A stretch of DNA of 43,923 nucleotides from Desulfatiglans anilini DSM 4660 (GTDB lineage Bacteria; Desulfobacterota; DSM-4660; Desulfatiglandales; Desulfatiglandaceae). Of this stretch, positions 6,561 through 13,946 are shown one piece after another. The notes beneath the pieces are model-generated. The model saw only the letters and a program-made list of their open reading frames with translations. It had not been told where the DNA came from and made no database searches. A program made the translations under genes and the position numbers. How positions within the stretch are numbered: the stretch's first letter is position 1; each line of letters begins with the position of its first letter. The stretch is taken from contig NZ_AULM01000029.1 of the NCBI RefSeq assembly GCF_000422285.1, positions 1 through 43,923 of the forward strand, written 5' to 3'.

Positions 6561-7432
6561 AGCTTCAGCAGATCAGGATCGATCACAAACGGCGCCGGCC
6601 GCTTGGCACTGCTCCGCAGATGCCGCGAAAACCACTTGCGGCAGGCCGTCTCGATCGGCACCTTGCCCATCGGGTCGAAGCGAAGGCAGGAGCTCTCATC
6701 GGGGCGCGTGAGGACATCCTGCACCAGTCGGCAGGAAAGATCGAGCGTCAACGCCAGATACTGCTCGAAGAGCGGCCAGCGCGGCGCGCGCATCCCCCAG
6801 ATCGCTTCGCGGTTGGCATTCACGAAACCGGTGAACTTGACCGACTGGGTGTAGAGGAGCTTGCTGGCGCTCATCCGGCCCCGGCTCTTCCCGCCGATGA
6901 ACCCGAGGATGGCGTCGCAGTTTTGGTGGTCCATCTTGAGAACCCGGTTGGCCAGCTGCGTATAATCGGTCCCGATCCAGTAATCGGCCTTGAGCTCCCA
7001 GTACAGATGGCCCATCCGGTTTCCGGGCGGGAAGAGGCTGAGCATCTTGGGAATGAAGATATGATGCGCCGCGACATCCGCCGCGAGGTGGGACAGAAAC
7101 CCATAGGCATAGGAGCGTTCTTGATCGTCGCGGGCCTCCGCGAGAAACTGGAACCCGCCCTCCCAGTGGTGCGGATGATCGTCGGCCTTCTTCTTCCCCT
7201 TGCCGATGAAAAAATCGGCCGCCATGCAGCCGTAAAGGTATTCGAAGGGATAGGCGGTCACCGCCCCGGCGATGGCCGGCAGGATCTCCTTCAGATGCCC
7301 CATCAAATGGAGGGCAGTGAGGGTGTGGACCCCCGGCCCCCACGCCAAGGCCCAATCGGCCTGCAGCCATTGAATGAAGGTACCCAGTCCGACAAAACAC
7401 AGAACCTTCAGAAAAAACCGTTTTCGCCCCAA
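6557..7432 (-). CDS. zinc-dependent phospholipase C-like protein
   Basis: The protein has 291 residues and a hydrophobic N-terminus (VLCFVGLGTFIQWLQADWALA) that is a signal peptide or anchor. The mature start is WGPGVHT. In the Zn-dependent phospholipase C fold, an N-terminal Trp and spaced His/Asp residues bind three zinc ions. Candidate ligands seen here are the W-G-P-G-x-H start, AADFFIG with DDHPHHWEGG at about residues 70-90, and GFLSHLAADVAAHHIF at about 110-125. This matches the 'zinc dependent phospholipase C family' found in many Desulfobacterota and Firmicutes; the actual substrate is unknown. The best start is TTG at 7432 with AAAGGAGT upstream, at somewhat long spacing. The gene ends in a 4-bp overlap with mutL, an odd partner for an exported lipase-like protein. 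Confidence 0.75.
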   Translation of the reverse strand: MGRKRFFLKVLCFVGLGTFIQWLQADWALAWGPGVHTLTALHLMGHLKEILPAIAGAVTAYPFEYLYGCMAADFFIGKGKKKADDHPHHWEGGFQFLAEARDDQERSYAYGFLSHLAADVAAHHIFIPKMLSLFPPGNRMGHLYWELKADYWIGTDYTQLANRVLKMDHQNCDAILGFIGGKSRGRMSASKLLYTQSVKFTGFVNANREAIWGMRAPRWPLFEQYLALTLDLSCRLVQDVLTRPDESSCLRFDPMGKVPIETACRKWFSRHLRSSAKRPAPFVIDPDLLKL

Positions 7433-7486
7433 AGTCGCTTTGCACTCCTTTATGATGGCTTCGCCGCCGAAAAGGCGGCCAACGGA

Positions 7487-8758
7487 TCATTCCATCGCTT
7501 CTGCGATGGAGACCGTCCGATCGCCGAGCATGTTGACGTAGCATCCGAGTTCGTTGTCGTACCAGCCATAGATGACCGCCTGCGTGATGGCGATCCGCAC
7601 GCGTTCGGCCGGCGCGCCCGCTGCGGGGCGCGCGTCGATGCCGCAGACCTTTCCGAGGTCGATCGCCACCTCCGCGGTCCGCGTGAGCGTCTCGTGCCCC
7701 TCGATCAAGGCCGCCGCGCGCGGCAGCCCGATGATGTCGGAGGAAACGTTCTGCTCCTCCGAGTAATGGAGGTACCCGCGCGAATCCTGCTGCGCAGCCT
7801 CACGGTAAACAGCGTTGATGTCCTCCCGGCGGATGCCCTCCCCGGTGGGGTCCTCCTGCAGATTCACGACGAGGATGACGAGGGAGCCGGTCGAGTTCGG
7901 AATCCGGACCGATTCCGCCATGAACCCGATGTCCTTCATCTCGGGGATGACGAGCCCGAGCGTGTTGGCGGCCCCCGTGCTCGTGAGGATGATGTTGTTC
8001 AGGATGCCGCGGTTCTTCCGCAGATCGGTCGCCCCCGCGCCCGGCATCCGGTCGAGGACCTGCTGGGAGGACGTCACGGCGTGGATCGTGGCCATCGAGG
8101 CCGTCAGGATCCGGTCGGCCCCGAAGCGATCGAGCAGCGGCTTCACCATGTGCGCCAAACAGGTGGTCGTGCACGAGGCGTTCGAGACGATCTTGTGCAC
8201 CTTCGGGTCGTAGGCGTCCTCGTTTACGCCCATGACGGTCGTCACCGCATCCCCAGGCATGGATTTGGACTTGTCCTTGATCTTGAAGGGCGCGGACACG
8301 ATCACCTTGCGCGCCCCTGCGGCCAGGTGCCCGCGCGCACTCCCCTTCGGGGCGTCCACGGGCAGGGTGGGATCGATGAACTGCCCGGTCGTGTCGACCA
8401 CCAGTTCGACCCCGTTCGCGGCCCAGGCGATCTCGGCCGGGTTGCGCGTCTCCCGCAGGACCTTCACCGGCACGCCGTCCAGGCGCAGGGTGCCGGCCGA
8501 TTCGTCGAGCGCTTCGACCACCGGGCCCGCTTGATAACCGTAAAGGTAGCCGCCGAGCGACCCGTAGGTCGAGTCATGAACCATATAGTGCGCGAGATCC
8601 GCGAGGGAGGTGCCCACACCGCGCCCGACGTTGACCACCACCTCCCCGAAATATTTCCGGGCCACGTGGTGCCAGAGCGTCATCTTGCCGATGCGGCCGA
8701 GGCCGTTGATGCCAAGTTTGCGTCCCTGACCGGATCCGCCGCCGATGATATCCGCCAT
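7487..8758 (-). CDS. gap: glyceraldehyde-3-phosphate dehydrogenase-like protein, long divergent form
   Basis: The 423-residue protein is clearly in the GAPDH family. It has GINGLGRIGK for the Rossmann loop, SNASCTTTCLAH with the nucleophilic Cys, SMATIHAVT with the catalytic His, TSTGAAN, and a C-terminal YGWYDNELGCYVN. It is about 85 residues longer than standard GAPDH and departs at informative positions. The Asp that follows the second beta strand and binds NAD ribose is missing (VVVNVGRGVG instead of VAINDx). CTTNC is CTTTC, and TGAAK is TGAAN. It may use NADP or a modified substrate; this is inference. AAGGAGG sits five bases before the ATG. It starts 10 bp after the stop of the PPDK-like gene, which supports a shared role in lower glycolysis or gluconeogenesis. 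Confidence 0.85.
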   Translation of the reverse strand: MADIIGGGSGQGRKLGINGLGRIGKMTLWHHVARKYFGEVVVNVGRGVGTSLADLAHYMVHDSTYGSLGGYLYGYQAGPVVEALDESAGTLRLDGVPVKVLRETRNPAEIAWAANGVELVVDTTGQFIDPTLPVDAPKGSARGHLAAGARKVIVSAPFKIKDKSKSMPGDAVTTVMGVNEDAYDPKVHKIVSNASCTTTCLAHMVKPLLDRFGADRILTASMATIHAVTSSQQVLDRMPGAGATDLRKNRGILNNIILTSTGAANTLGLVIPEMKDIGFMAESVRIPNSTGSLVILVVNLQEDPTGEGIRREDINAVYREAAQQDSRGYLHYSEEQNVSSDIIGLPRAAALIEGHETLTRTAEVAIDLGKVCGIDARPAAGAPAERVRIAITQAVIYGWYDNELGCYVNMLGDRTVSIAEAME

Positions 8759-8768
8759 AGCAACCTCC

Positions 8769-11700
8769 TTATGCCGTTCGAACCTTTAATTTTCCAAGGT
8801 AAACCGTCCCGCTCCTCCCGTCAAGACTGATCCAGTCCCCGGCATTCAAAACCTGGCGGTCGAGCGAGCAGGCGCTGTCCTTTTCCATGCAGACGAGCGC
8901 TGTGCACCCCACCACGCAGGTCTTGCCGAGCCGATGGGCCACGATCGCCGCATGCGAGGTGGCCCCGCCCCGCGCGGTCAGAAGCCCGTCGGCCTCGTGG
9001 ATCTCGACGATGTCGTCCGGCACTGTGTCCCCCCGCACCAGGACCAGGGGCGTCTCCGGCTCCCGCTGACGCCAGTCTGCGATCTCTTCCCGCTTGAAGA
9101 CCACGCGCCCGACCATCGCGCCGCCGCTGACGCCCACGCCGTGCCCCAGCACCCGCGGCGGCTCACCGTCCGCGATGTCGAAGGCCTGGACCTGCTTCCG
9201 CTCGCGGATCCCCATGTCGCGGGTCTGAAGAAAATAGAGGCGCTCCGGCTGAGGCCCCTCGAAGGTGAACTCCATCTCCTGCGGGGTCCAGCCGTTCTGA
9301 TCGATCAGCCTTTCGGCATAGCGCTTCAGGGCAAGATATATTTCCGGGAAGAGGGTTTCGAGGGAGCCCTCCCCGGCGCGGTCTTCCATGGCTGCCTGCT
9401 GTTCCGAAACCGGGAGGGTCGTCACCAGGCCCGAGACCACATCCTCCCCCTGATTGCCCGGGGTGAAGTCCCCCCAGAGGCGCACCATGTCGGCAGGCAT
9501 CCGCGGGCTGTGGGTGAAAAGCACCCCCGCGCCCGAATCCCGCGACCGGTTGCCGAAGACCATGCCCTGCACCGTCACGGCAGTCCCCCAATCATCCGAG
9601 ATCCCCATGATCTTCCGGTATGCGGCGGCCTTCGGCGCAAACCAGGAATCGAACACCAGGTGCAACGCAGCCATCAACTGTTCCATCGGCTCATCCGGGA
9701 CCAGGATCCCCTGGCCGCGGACAAGCGCCGCATAGGCCAGTGCGAGATCCTTCATCCGGTCGTCCGAAAACTCCCGCTTGTGGCGTACGCCGGCCCCGGC
9801 CTTGTGCTCCTCCATGAGATCGTCGAAACGGTCCCGCGCGATGCCCCCCGCCATCCCGAAGGACTGCTGGAGCCGCCGAAACGTGTCCCAGGCGAACCAC
9901 GCGTTGCCGCTCTCCTCCGCCAGGCGCTGAACGATCGTTTCGTCGAGTCCGATATTGAGGAAAGTCGTCATCATGCCCGGCAGCGAAATCGACGCGCCGC
10001 TTCTGACCGCCAGGAGGAGCGGCTTCTCGGGCCGGCCGAAGCCCCGCCCGGTCTCCTCTTCGAGGCGCGCGATCCCGCGCCGGAGATCCGCTTCGAAGCG
10101 CCGGCGCACCGGTTCGTAATCCCGGACCAGCTCCCGGCCGCGGAAGACATCGGTCGTGACGATGAATCCAGGGGGCACGGGCAGCCCCAGCTCTTGGATG
10201 CGGACGAGATTCAGCCCCTTGCTCCCTAAATGGATGACGTCCTTCACCTCCGGCTTGACCGGGTGAAACGGCGTCACAGCGCGCTGCGGCTCATAGTCCA
10301 GGAGCAGACGAAGCGACTCGGGCGGCAGCTCCGCCGCCTGTTTCCTGAGCGTGTCGAGAATCCGGCCGATGAGGCGATCCAACGGCTGAAGGCCGAGCGA
10401 AGAAGCGATCCGATCGCGCAGGAAGATCTCGCTTATTCGCTGGGCAAGCCGCGTGCGGTCCGCCTCCCCGCCTTCCGGTTCCTGCGGGTCCCTGAAACGG
10501 GGGAGGATCCGCGTCAGAGGGACCTCGGAGGCCGCCCTCAGCAGGTTTTCCTGGTGGATGTTGTTGAAATAGTCCTGGACGATGTTCCCGACGGCCCGCG
10601 AGAAGCCCTGAAAAATGTCCACATACTGGCCGGCCGAAAACCCCCGGATCGCCAGGGAATGATCCAGGAGGTCCAGCTGCCGTTCGAGCTCCTGGCTCAG
10701 GATGCCGTCCACCGCAAGGGCGCGCGTGAAGAGGCGCAGGGTGTTCCGGATCTCCCGGAAGCCCCCACGGGTGACGAATCCGAGTTCGATCCTTTCGAGC
10801 AGGTTTTCGAAGCGCACGTTGACCAGGGCTTCGAGCCTGAAGGTCAGCCCGAGGGCATCGAATTTCGGCTCGTGGTAGCTCCCGTAGGTGGAGGGGATGT
10901 CCACCGCGAAGTGCCGCTTGTGATAGATGTCTTCCTGGGCCTCGAAGCGCTCGTCGGACAGGATCAGGTCCTTCAGCTCCTCCAGGTGGTCGAGGAGGCC
11001 TTCGAGCTGGCTGACCGGATCGGCCACGTGGAGCGCCTCCCTAAGACGCTCCACCCCGGGCAGGACCCCCGGTCTGACTACGCCGAGATAGGACTCGAGG
11101 TCGGTGTAGCCGTGTTCGTATTTTTGAAAAAGGAGGCGGTAGAGGCGGATCGCGAGCCGCACCCGTTCGGCCTCCTTGGGGTCGACATCGGAAGCCTCGG
11201 CGATCGTCTCATCCGGGATCTCGAGCAGGTCCTCGACACCCCGCGCCCCCGCCGCTTCGGCGGCCTGGCTGAGGACCGCATGAACGCCGTCCAGGAAAGG
11301 GCCTTCGCTGCCGAGGCGCTCATAAAGGCCTAGCGGGACATAGGGTTCGAGGGGGATTTTCTCCCGGGTCAGCCAGTAGTGCAGCAGCCCCTCCATCAGC
11401 CCGACGATCCGGTTGCTGCTCTCGACATGGCTTTGTTTGCGGACGAAATGGACCAGCGCGTCGTCGCGGCGCGTGATCTCATCCAGGCGCGTGCTCACGT
11501 CGCGCAGGGGGCCCTCGGCGCCGATGTCGTTGAAATAGGACGGGAAGAGACGCGCCAACTGCTTGACGAGATTGTAGACGGGGCGAACGCCGCTGTTCAG
11601 GAGCGCGGTGATGTCGCGGGGGAAGAGGTCGGTGTCCCGGATGAGGACGCCGCTCAGCCCCAAGTGGACGATCAGCGCCGACAGCAACCGCCTGCTCCAG

Positions 11701-12956
11701 CGCGGCTCGCATTCGATCAACCCGAGCCACGTGCGGATGTTCTGTACGTGCGCATCGTTGGCCTGGAGCTGCCACTCGTCGGTGACCCCCCGGAAATCGG
11801 GCGCCTCGAAGCCCATGCCGATCGCGTGGTCCTGGAAAAAGAGGATCAGCCCGCAGTCCCCGGTCTTGTAAACGGCCTGGCCGAGATTCAGGACGCAGGT
11901 CAGGGCCGTCCCCGGATAGGCGCCCGCCATGCGCTTCAGGATGGTAAAGGTCTTCTCGAGGGCCTCCCGGACCCGCTCGGGGCCCTCGTGCTCGATCAGG
12001 CGGACGAGCGTCCGGTTGATCTCGCGCAGGATCTCTTCGTGCAGAACGGCGAGCCCCTCCAGATCCATCATGTGCAGCAGGAACCAGAGCTTCCACATCC
12101 GGCCCGTCTCACCGCCGCCGCCCGCCTCCTCGATCGCCCTCGGGGCCGCTTCATAGGCGGCTACGATCTCCCCGTAGCCGGGGAGCGCCAGGATGCGCTC
12201 GACGGGCTTCAGGCCGTCCTCCTCGGAGGAGCGGAGCGCCTGTTCGAGGTCTTCGCGCGCGGCCGCCAGCCTCGCATGCTGGAGATCGGCGAAGGCGTCT
12301 TCGGGCACCGCCTTCGTGTCCGGCGCCGCCTCGGCCCGAAACCATTCCAGTGGATCGGGCTGCGCCATCCACTCGTCATAGGCGGCCCGGTAATAATCCG
12401 CCAGAAGGCGGCGCAGGGCGGCGACGGTGCAGTCGGGGGGCCCCGCGTCGATCAGCTCGCGCCCCAGGCGGTTGATGCGGTAGAAACTCCGGACGAAGCG
12501 CCGGAAGAGGCCCTCCTCCAGGCACCGGATCGATTCGAACACGCGGTCCAGGAGCGCATAGAAGGCCGGGGCCTCCCGGACGCCTTCCCGGATGATCTTC
12601 TGAAGCAGCACAAGCAGGTTGTCCGCGGCATCCTGCTTGACCGATTTGGTCCCCGCGGATCCAAGCGCCATGAAGAAGATGTCGCAGTAAACCCCGGCCG
12701 CTTCGACCCCCTCGGGGTGGGTCTTCAACGCGTGGAAATAGTTCAGCGCGTACCCCCGGGTCTCTTTGACGATAAAGGCCCAGTTGCGGTAAGGGTGGCA
12801 GACCTCCTCGAGGTACGTCTCGAGGCCTTCCTTCAGACCCGGGTATTTCGCCATGACCCGTTCGATCACCCGGTAGCGCTCGTCGACGGTGACATCCACG
12901 CGGGTGCAGGCCAGGTTGACTTCGAGTGCGCAAGATTCTGGCGGTTGCTTTTCCAT
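8769..12956 (-). CDS. PPDK-like ATP-grasp plus phosphohistidine protein with large unknown N-terminal region
   Basis: The protein has about 1395 residues. Residues 1 to about 885 are mostly helical and not recognised. From about 890 it follows the ATP-grasp half of pyruvate phosphate dikinase: LGSKGLNLVRIQELGLPVP, LLAVRSGASISLPGMMTTFLN, GTAVTVQGMVFGN, SGAGVLFTHSP, GNQGEDVVSG and LYFLQTRDM. A swivelling phosphohistidine domain ends the protein, with GGATSHAAIVAHRLG and phosphorylatable His about 1335. The C-terminal PEP/pyruvate TIM barrel of PPDK and PEP synthase is absent. The protein can be expected to autophosphorylate from ATP, but the phosphate acceptor is unknown; the N-terminal region is the obvious candidate acceptor module. 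ATG 12956 was chosen because a longer frame would run into divergent radC; its ribosome site is weak. GAPDH follows 10 bp downstream. Confidence 0.8.
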   Translation of the reverse strand: MEKQPPESCALEVNLACTRVDVTVDERYRVIERVMAKYPGLKEGLETYLEEVCHPYRNWAFIVKETRGYALNYFHALKTHPEGVEAAGVYCDIFFMALGSAGTKSVKQDAADNLLVLLQKIIREGVREAPAFYALLDRVFESIRCLEEGLFRRFVRSFYRINRLGRELIDAGPPDCTVAALRRLLADYYRAAYDEWMAQPDPLEWFRAEAAPDTKAVPEDAFADLQHARLAAAREDLEQALRSSEEDGLKPVERILALPGYGEIVAAYEAAPRAIEEAGGGGETGRMWKLWFLLHMMDLEGLAVLHEEILREINRTLVRLIEHEGPERVREALEKTFTILKRMAGAYPGTALTCVLNLGQAVYKTGDCGLILFFQDHAIGMGFEAPDFRGVTDEWQLQANDAHVQNIRTWLGLIECEPRWSRRLLSALIVHLGLSGVLIRDTDLFPRDITALLNSGVRPVYNLVKQLARLFPSYFNDIGAEGPLRDVSTRLDEITRRDDALVHFVRKQSHVESSNRIVGLMEGLLHYWLTREKIPLEPYVPLGLYERLGSEGPFLDGVHAVLSQAAEAAGARGVEDLLEIPDETIAEASDVDPKEAERVRLAIRLYRLLFQKYEHGYTDLESYLGVVRPGVLPGVERLREALHVADPVSQLEGLLDHLEELKDLILSDERFEAQEDIYHKRHFAVDIPSTYGSYHEPKFDALGLTFRLEALVNVRFENLLERIELGFVTRGGFREIRNTLRLFTRALAVDGILSQELERQLDLLDHSLAIRGFSAGQYVDIFQGFSRAVGNIVQDYFNNIHQENLLRAASEVPLTRILPRFRDPQEPEGGEADRTRLAQRISEIFLRDRIASSLGLQPLDRLIGRILDTLRKQAAELPPESLRLLLDYEPQRAVTPFHPVKPEVKDVIHLGSKGLNLVRIQELGLPVPPGFIVTTDVFRGRELVRDYEPVRRRFEADLRRGIARLEEETGRGFGRPEKPLLLAVRSGASISLPGMMTTFLNIGLDETIVQRLAEESGNAWFAWDTFRRLQQSFGMAGGIARDRFDDLMEEHKAGAGVRHKREFSDDRMKDLALAYAALVRGQGILVPDEPMEQLMAALHLVFDSWFAPKAAAYRKIMGISDDWGTAVTVQGMVFGNRSRDSGAGVLFTHSPRMPADMVRLWGDFTPGNQGEDVVSGLVTTLPVSEQQAAMEDRAGEGSLETLFPEIYLALKRYAERLIDQNGWTPQEMEFTFEGPQPERLYFLQTRDMGIRERKQVQAFDIADGEPPRVLGHGVGVSGGAMVGRVVFKREEIADWRQREPETPLVLVRGDTVPDDIVEIHEADGLLTARGGATSHAAIVAHRLGKTCVVGCTALVCMEKDSACSLDRQVLNAGDWISLDGRSGTVYLGKLKVRTA

Positions 12957-13020
12957 GCGGCGGAGACCCTGAGGAAATCTATAAAAAGAAAGCGGAGTCC
13001 GAGGGTGTCTATAAGGTGGA

Positions 13021-13049
13021 TTGACTCCGGAGGATATTTTTTTTATTCT
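13021..13049 (+). promoter_or_regulatory. candidate sigma70 promoter of radC
   Basis: TTGACT (13021-13026) is separated by 17 bp from TATTCT (13044-13049), within an AT-rich patch of an otherwise GC-rich region, about 160 bp before radC. An imperfectly placed inverted repeat CGGAGTC...GACTCCG overlaps it and could be an operator for the divergent pair. This is inference from motif match only. Confidence 0.4.
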
Positions 13050-13211
13050 ATCATCGCGACGGCCCCCAAGGCAATCCCCCTTTCCCGAAGCGGCCGGTTT
13101 TACGCTTTCCGTTGCGCTGCCCCCCCGGACCAGCTTTTCCTCGATTTCAGGCAAAGCCCTTCGCGGCCCCAGGAAAAAACCCTCAACCCTTTTTGATTCT
13201 GACGGCAGGTC

Positions 13212-13946
13212 ATGAAGGACGAAGCCGCATGGCGCAGGCGCGTCGAAGGCCATCGCGAGAGGCTGCGTCAACGTTTTGTGGAAGGCGGGCTCGAACGCTT
13301 TTCGGATGAAGAAGTGGTGGAGTTCCTGCTGACGCTCGGAACGCCCCGGGGGGACCTCAAACCGGCGGCGAGGGAGGCCATGAAGCGCCTGGGGAGCCTG
13401 TCGGCGGTCCTTTCGGCGCCCCTCGAAAAACTGACGGCCATACCCGGGATCGGCGCCCGCAACGCCCTGTATCTCCAACTCGTTCACCAGACCGCTGCGC
13501 GCTACCTTCGGGACCGGGCCGCAGCCCAGCCCTTCTTCTCCTCATCGCAATGCATCTTCGACTACCTGTTTCACAGCATGCGGGACCTCAAGCGCGAGGT
13601 CTTCAAGGTCCTGTTTCTGAACCGCAAGAACATGCTGATCGAGGATCGGGACCTCTTTGCCGGATCGTTGACCGGAAGCGCCGTCTATCCCCGGGAGATC
13701 ATGGGGCTGGCCCTGGAGCTCAAGGCGGCCGCTCTCGTCTTCGTCCACAACCACCCTTCCGGCGACCCCTCCCCCTCCCCGGAGGACCAGCGCCTCACGC
13801 GGGACCTCGTCTGGGCCGCAAAGCTCCTCATGATCCAGGTCCTCGACCACATCGTGATCGGACACAACACCTATTACAGCTTCGCAGACCAGGGGCAGAT
13901 CCGGCGGTATGCGGAGGATTACGACCAGCGCCTGCGCTCCATCTGA
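13212..13946 (+). CDS. radC: RadC family JAB/MPN metalloprotein
   Basis: The 244-residue protein has the standard RadC layout. An N-terminal helix-hairpin-helix region (DEEVVEFLLTLG, then LTAIPGIGARNAL at about residues 75-90) is followed by the UPF0758 JAB1/MPN domain. FLNRKNMLIEDRDLFAGSLTGSAVYPREI precedes the metal-binding HNHPSGDPSPSPED motif (His-x-His-x10-Asp) at about residue 178. The family role is unsettled; RadC proteins were once linked to DNA repair and are now considered possible metal-dependent hydrolases. ATG 13212 is preceded by a modest AGG. It is the only plus-strand gene in the first 22 kb apart from the IS tail, diverges from the PPDK-like gene and converges on the peroxiredoxin. 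Confidence 0.93.
   Translation: MKDEAAWRRRVEGHRERLRQRFVEGGLERFSDEEVVEFLLTLGTPRGDLKPAAREAMKRLGSLSAVLSAPLEKLTAIPGIGARNALYLQLVHQTAARYLRDRAAAQPFFSSSQCIFDYLFHSMRDLKREVFKVLFLNRKNMLIEDRDLFAGSLTGSAVYPREIMGLALELKAAALVFVHNHPSGDPSPSPEDQRLTRDLVWAAKLLMIQVLDHIVIGHNTYYSFADQGQIRRYAEDYDQRLRSI

Follow-up and report, generated by a model that had tools for sequence, protein, structure and literature searches.

Gene layout and domain organization of PPDKx

The window analysed here is a stretch of 43,923 nucleotides from Desulfatiglans anilini DSM 4660 (positions 1 to 43,923 of contig NZ_AULM01000029.1, assembly GCF_000422285.1). It encodes a protein related to pyruvate, phosphate dikinase (PPDK) but lacking the barrel domain that binds phosphoenolpyruvate (PEP) and pyruvate; we denote this protein PPDKx. 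The gene, which a previous reading of the window made without database searches (hereafter, the sequence-only reading) had correctly placed at positions 8769-12956, is encoded on the minus strand and is followed by a gene for a variant glyceraldehyde-3-phosphate dehydrogenase (GAPDH). The features discussed below are the following:

8769..12956, minus strand: PPDKx, the barrel-less PPDK-like protein, 1395 amino acids plus the stop codon
10287..12956, minus strand: N-terminal region of PPDKx, residues 1-890; modelled as all-helical, no family match; proposed acceptor domain
11412..11810, minus strand: conserved core 1, residues 383-515, with the motifs DTDLFxRDIT, GAEGxLR and RKQSHVES
10836..10940, minus strand: conserved core 2, residues 673-707, a beta hairpin with the motifs KRH and IPSMYG (IPSTYG in the window)
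9216..10232, minus strand: ATP-grasp domain of the PPDK type, residues 909-1247, recognized by Pfam, NCBIfam, alignment with 1kbl and Foldseek
8778..9161, minus strand: phosphohistidine swivel domain (PEP-utilizers), residues 1266-1393, with His1335 at 8952-8954
7487..8758, minus strand: variant GAPDH, 423 amino acids, the partner gene, 10 bases downstream of PPDKx

Translation from the ATG at 12956 yields the 1395-residue protein. The homology of the relatives mostly opens at residues 1-8 of this product, so that the longer frame starting with the GTG at 13487 appears superfluous.

The Pfam scans covered PPDKx along with two remote relatives; PPDKx matched only PPDK_N (114.9 bits) and PEP-utilizers (67.5 bits). 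Alignment with the sequences of the Protein Data Bank (PDB) likewise recovered PPDK over residues 909/910-1247 and approximately 1266-1393, and nothing upstream. The absence of the TIM barrel, as claimed in the sequence-only reading, is borne out both within the protein, where Pfam detects no PEP-utilizers_C (PF02896) domain, and around it: the search of the genome gave no PF02896 match on the contig of the window and hence no separate barrel gene adjoining PPDKx. The four PF02896 matches in this genome are all on other contigs, in open reading frames (ORFs) of 612, 623, 847 and 1018 amino acids. A frame resembling PEP synthase lies on contig C26, and C2 encodes an ordinary PPDK; the possibility that PPDKx substitutes for a missing canonical PPDK is thereby ruled out for this organism.

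The catalytic core

Among the NCBIfam models, PPDK itself (TIGR01828) gave the best match to PPDKx, 378.8 bits against a cut-off of 843.45, and PEP synthase (TIGR01418) scored 77.9 bits against 739.75. Both motifs that had been reported as intact are indeed present, QGEDVVSG at residues 1169-1176 and TSHAAIVA, which includes His1335, at 1333-1340. We assessed conservation in an alignment that combined the window protein with 99 homologs (100 rows), where a position was considered invariant if identical in at least 97% of the rows. Nine residues, K913, R985, R1028, Q1130, D1172, E1229, Q1244, R1246 and His1335, are identical in all 100 rows. Two acidic positions alternate between E and D: 1171 (E in 86 rows, D in 14) and 1227 (96 and 4 rows, respectively). 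We take this set, along with the roles of its members, to correspond to K22, R92, R135, Q240, D280, E323, Q335, R337 and His455 of the Clostridium symbiosum PPDK.

The structural model of residues 201-1395 (predicted local distance difference test score (pLDDT) 89.5; predicted template modelling score (pTM) 0.79) places the ATP-grasp and His domains in the packing of 1kbl, with a superposition at 3.4 A over 538 columns and a Foldseek E-value of 2.4e-31; by comparison, 2r82 fits the model at 14.5 A. 1KBL is described as the state in which the His domain lies beside the nucleotide domain (PMC5371819). The intact set of catalytic residues suggests that PPDKx is an active dikinase derived from PPDK.

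Spread of the family

Full-length homologs from the same order as the source of the window are 51-57% identical to PPDKx, a copy from the same genus is 96% identical, and more distant homologs are 34-37% identical. When residues 1-896 were searched against 395 genomes of the phylum, 116 were positive, two of them (G361 and G431) with remote proteins; among the better assemblies, the count was 105 of 327. Beyond the phylum, the spread is known from the named loci alone, that is, the best 80 of a longer list, among which are relatives from Nitrospirota and one from Acidobacteriota.

The listed ORFs of the family extend by no more than 24 amino acids past the matched region, which argues against chance or an assembly break as the origin of the architecture, and none of the members examined has gained a barrel; the two listed proteins with much longer extensions (333 and 419 amino acids, at L030 and L033) are ordinary PPDKs. 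PPDKx thus represents a real, conserved family and is no artefact. The converse, that is, a non-catalytic remnant, or a barrel lost in this particular genome through misassembly or a frameshift, is very improbable, given the full-length frames in many species, the active-site residues fixed in all 100 rows and the lack of the barrel throughout the members examined; nothing weighty speaks for it, apart from a few relatives (for example, in G124) in which the gene is split over two frames.

The proteins of G361 and G431 form a second, divergent subfamily, with 1485-1543 amino acids, the same domain order and a weak His domain. Their genes lie at L148:1734-6365 (minus strand) and L149:4873-9330 (plus strand), and the proteins have A-H where the others have S-H. 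In the sole pair compared, the L148 (G431) protein is about 26% identical to the window protein over 1011 aligned positions. The L149 gene adjoins one that resembles a sigma-54-type regulator.

The N-terminal helical region

The sequence-only reading described the N-terminal region as helical, of unknown family and taking the place of the barrel. The first two points stand, whereas the third does not apply to the chain, in which the region precedes the ATP-grasp domain, a different domain order. Residues 1-890 match no family in Pfam, NCBIfam or PADLOC, and the profile built from this region retrieved six PDB sequences, the best at E = 0.3 and none convincing. The AlphaFold2 model of residues 1-896 (mean pLDDT 89.6, pTM 0.85) consists of helices throughout, except for a single beta hairpin (674-695) with strands at 674-682 and 687-695. 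The Foldseek matches of this model are generic helical solenoids (best E = 1.8e-4, no TM-score above 0.23 among the listed rows), and the best VIA match has Z = 11.5 with a root-mean-square deviation of 17.0 over 340 residues, a level common for helical repeats. We treated the karyopherin-like and other helical-repeat matches, with their low TM-scores, as noise at the level of the fold class, that is, neither as a relationship nor as a proof of fold novelty. The predicted fold is accordingly without a convincing PDB match in the Foldseek, VIA and sequence searches, and none of the Pfam, NCBIfam, PADLOC, PDB-sequence or Foldseek comparisons revealed a known acceptor domain within residues 1-890.

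Conservation within this region is strikingly uneven, with borders that were chosen once the alignment had been seen. Only 8 of the 382 positions in residues 1-382 are invariant, compared with 36 of 133 (27%) in residues 383-515, 15 of these charged or His, and 16 of 35 (46%) in residues 673-707, 7 of these charged or His. The two cores together contain 22 invariant charged or His residues and are denser in invariant positions than the ATP-grasp segment (69 of 360, or 19%, in 901-1260) and the His domain (27 of 135, or 20%, in 1261-1395). Such segments have the look expected of a second active or ligand-binding site, and it is mainly for this reason that we favor an acceptor domain over a protein scaffold.

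A scaffold is, nevertheless, what the strongest rival explanation entails: PPDKx would be a regulatory histidine kinase of the type of VadK, the truncated PPDK of Mycobacterium tuberculosis, with the helical region serving as a scaffold for the variant GAPDH. The kinase would phosphorylate itself from ATP and bind the GAPDH, perhaps phosphorylating or inhibiting it, so that carbon flux would be set by the energy charge. We consider this explanation possible, if doubtful. It is favored by the all-helical N-terminal fold, which matches only generic solenoid-like structures, by the strict pairing with the GAPDH described below, and by VadK, which autophosphorylates and contacts metabolic enzymes (PMC13400623). 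However, the clusters of invariant charged residues in both conserved cores resemble a ligand or catalytic site, and residues 1-382, the largest other stretch and a possible protein-binding surface, are poorly conserved.

Pairing with a variant GAPDH

The GAPDH encoded next to PPDKx in the window scores above the Pfam cut-offs for Gp_dh_N and Gp_dh_C but, with 326.1 bits, below the cut-off of TIGR01534 (GAPDH-I; 367.2). Compared with the 395 genomes, it separates two classes: one at E < 1e-90, a border of our own choosing, found in 115 genomes, and the ordinary GAPDHs, at about 1e-25 to 2e-51 among the matches listed. The 46 variants measured have 416-456 amino acids, whereas 20 ordinary GAPDHs from the same loci have 336-345. 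The variants retain the catalytic Cys and His motifs, share several insertions and have N-x-G-R in the coenzyme site where the ordinary enzymes have an NDL motif. Among their closest PDB chains are mutant Bacillus GAPDHs, which we take to be those engineered for NADP use, a faint hint that the variant might prefer NADP. G088 and G124, each a single contig with a completeness rating of 100%, have the variant as their only GAPDH match at E up to 1e-20, and therefore it can probably serve as the GAPDH of the cell.

Among the 395 genomes, 113 encode both PPDKx and the variant, 3 PPDKx alone, 2 the variant alone and 277 neither, in a cross-tabulation built from lists copied by hand. The genomes with PPDKx alone are G170, a draft of 76% completeness, and the remote G361 and G431; those with the variant alone, G065 and G136, are 79% and 62% complete. 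Fisher's test gives p = 7.5e-93 for this co-occurrence, a value that is overstated since the genomes are related; more telling are the families (f1, f2, f7, f15, f16 and f58) in which some members lack both genes and others have both.

The sequence-only reading had pointed to a conserved neighborhood with gap as a check, and such a neighborhood is widespread: the two genes lie within 4.5 kb of each other in 86 of the 113 genomes, on separate contigs in 23 and far apart on one contig in 4. In one of these four (G358), the genes lie at opposite ends of a single contig, and a circular molecule would probably bring them next to each other. The variant was found at 48 of the best 80 named loci and, where at least 1.5 kb is available on both sides, at 38 of 53, 35 of these within 500 bases; it lies downstream of PPDKx, on either the same or the opposite strand. 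At L074, L097 and L099, the order is ordinary gap, PPDKx, variant gap, pgk and tpi, the last two being named from their translations. PPDKx and the variant are also neighbors at L118, from the cultured Desulfoferrobacter suflitae.

Trees with 42 rows each were built for PPDKx (a quick one) and for the variant GAPDH; they largely agree, and several forks are open in both. The Nitrospirota rows (L054, L062 and L064) and the Acidobacteriota row (L121) occupy similar places among Desulfobacterota in both trees, which fits joint transfer of the two genes, if these placements are right. PPDKx co-occurs with one specific subfamily of GAPDH, even where the genes are far apart. The earlier suggestion of a link to central carbon metabolism gains support from this near one-to-one co-occurrence, from the gap-pgk-tpi operons and from the largely matching trees.

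An alternative is that PPDKx acts on another small molecule or polymer, such as a sugar, glycogen, glycerate or dihydroxyacetone, and that the link to GAPDH reflects shared regulation. In favor of this scenario, 11 of the 81 loci examined, those of the Desulfobulbaceae type (cluster 3), carry a glycogen-synthase gene followed by an ordinary gap upstream of PPDKx, with no variant seen nearby, and related dikinases are described as using rifampin (PMC4844700) and phenolics (PMC12167813). We nonetheless regard it as decidedly unlikely, considering that the co-occurrence concerns one GAPDH subfamily and not GAPDH in general, and that Pfam detects no carbohydrate-binding family in PPDKx.

Proposed function

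Our preferred reading, to which we assign a probability of roughly 0.5, is that PPDKx is a small-molecule dikinase with an N-terminal acceptor domain that works together with the variant GAPDH. The ATP-grasp domain would pass the beta-phosphate of ATP to His1335, with AMP released and pyrophosphate (PPi) formed from phosphate (Pi) as in PPDK; this step is suggested by the conserved residues and the VadK precedent. The swivel domain would then move the phosphate to the N-terminal helical domain, where a small anionic acceptor would be bound in a site made of segments 383-515 and 673-707, as the conservation of these cores suggests. Less surely than these steps, the acceptor may belong to the triose-phosphate/3-phosphoglycerate stage, a tie to the reaction of the variant GAPDH that derives from the pairing alone.

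The most economical acceptor would be 3-phosphoglycerate, converted to 1,3-bisphosphoglycerate that the variant GAPDH would then reduce. As the specific acceptor, proposed from the GAPDH pairing only, 3-phosphoglycerate is unlikely in our estimate. The pair could then operate as a dikinase-driven bypass of phosphoglycerate kinase (PGK) or, in reverse, as a route using AMP and PPi. That the pair forms such an energy-coupled module (3-phosphoglycerate + ATP + Pi = 1,3-bisphosphoglycerate + AMP + PPi) we deem quite unlikely.

The acceptor would, as the sequence-only reading had also suggested, differ from that of PPDK, and residues 383-515 and 673-707 may form one pocket or face His1335. Several points weigh against the small-molecule dikinase proposal. 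Protein binding is common among helical solenoids and fits a regulatory kinase equally well. The divergent subfamily of G361 and G431 retains the architecture in genomes without the variant GAPDH. Finally, PGK was matched in 114 of the 116 PPDKx-positive genomes, the exceptions (G230 and G253) being drafts. Replacement of PGK by PPDKx is thereby ruled out, and the pair would therefore be a bypass.

The only PGK match in the genome of the window (C22:195-1403; L147) scores 253.8 bits against PF00162, compared with more than 520 bits elsewhere among the genomes listed. The E-values of PGK are similarly weak in G001, G010, G018, G037, G047 and G049, from the same family and order.

Relation to known dikinases

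PPDKx shares with PPDK (TIGR01828) the ATP-grasp and phosphohistidine domains, the catalytic residues and the 1kbl-like packing, but has no PEP/pyruvate barrel and carries an additional helical region of about 890 residues. Loss or swap of the barrel in dikinase cores is already known from rifampin phosphotransferase (RPH), HpeHI and VadK. VadK (Rv1127c) is reported to autophosphorylate on His422 and to interact with enzymes of the methylcitrate cycle (PMC13400623). VadK and PPDKx both combine the ATP-grasp and His domains of PPDK, lack the barrel and are tied to central carbon metabolism; as described there, however, VadK is a protein of about 50 kDa with other partners and no large N-terminal domain, unlike PPDKx with its approximately 890 residues ahead of the core.

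RPH and the prodigiosin ligases PigC and RedH resemble PPDKx in that the acceptor domain accompanying the dikinase core has been replaced. In RPH, the His domain is C-terminal and the acceptor domain lies between it and the ATP-grasp domain (PMC4844700), that is, the order is ATP-grasp, RIF domain, His, compared with N-terminal region, ATP-grasp, His in PPDKx. HpeHI are described as two-component small-molecule dikinases acting on phenolics (PMC12167813); they share with PPDKx the ATP-grasp and His domains and an acceptor other than pyruvate (proposed in the case of PPDKx) but are split into two proteins with an RPH-like acceptor domain, whereas PPDKx is a single chain. The scores of PPDKx against the respective NCBIfam models are far below the cut-offs: 31 bits against 999 for RPH (NF041857), 34.5 against 1350 for RedH and 26 against 1300 for PigC. 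With respect to the glucan, water dikinases, the carbohydrate-binding families in Pfam yielded no match in PPDKx, although such a search may overlook a module for which Pfam has no model. In the plant enzymes of this group, the His domain precedes the ATP-grasp domain, unlike the order in PPDKx. In the open PMC literature, with subscription papers outside its scope, we found no description of PPDKx, of a large helical domain ahead of the ATP-grasp domain or of the pairing with GAPDH.

Neighboring genes

Directly downstream of the GAPDH gene, the window encodes a member of the Zn-dependent phospholipase C family (PF00882; 6557-7432, minus strand), followed on the same strand by what we take to be mutL-like and miaA-like genes. 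The long plus-strand frames opposite GAPDH and PPDKx (6620-8830, 8934-10229 and 11379-13196) seem to be a side effect of codon usage at high GC; in greedy ORF calling, one of them masked the GAPDH gene. Elsewhere in the genome, on contigs C56, C6, C9 and C13, there are five PPDK_N matches in stand-alone frames of 356-379 amino acids, a size matching that of the separate ATP-grasp protein in two-component dikinases, for example, HpeI; the genome seems to be rich in such systems.

In other genomes, the genes upstream of PPDKx vary. At L047, L050, L051, L059 and similar Desulfobacteraceae-type loci, these are carbon monoxide dehydrogenase/acetyl-CoA synthase (CODH/ACS) genes (catalytic CODH, ACS alpha/beta, gamma and methyltransferase, in varying subsets). 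At L099, L101, L118 and similar Syntrophobacteraceae-type loci, varying subsets of PtsN, RapZ and mannose-type EIIA are encoded.

Implications

The dikinase superfamily is known for swaps of acceptor domains; in PPDKx, the swapped domain would stand ahead of the ATP-grasp domain and come with a fixed metabolic partner. In sulfate reducers and syntrophs, the activation of substrates produces AMP and PPi; if the proposed module is real, its reverse direction would regain ATP from these products. The family occurs widely among anaerobes of environmental importance; its members probably bear the label PPDK or PEP synthase in databases, a misannotation that would distort metabolic reconstructions. 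The distinct GAPDH partner makes the function of PPDKx directly testable with two purified proteins.

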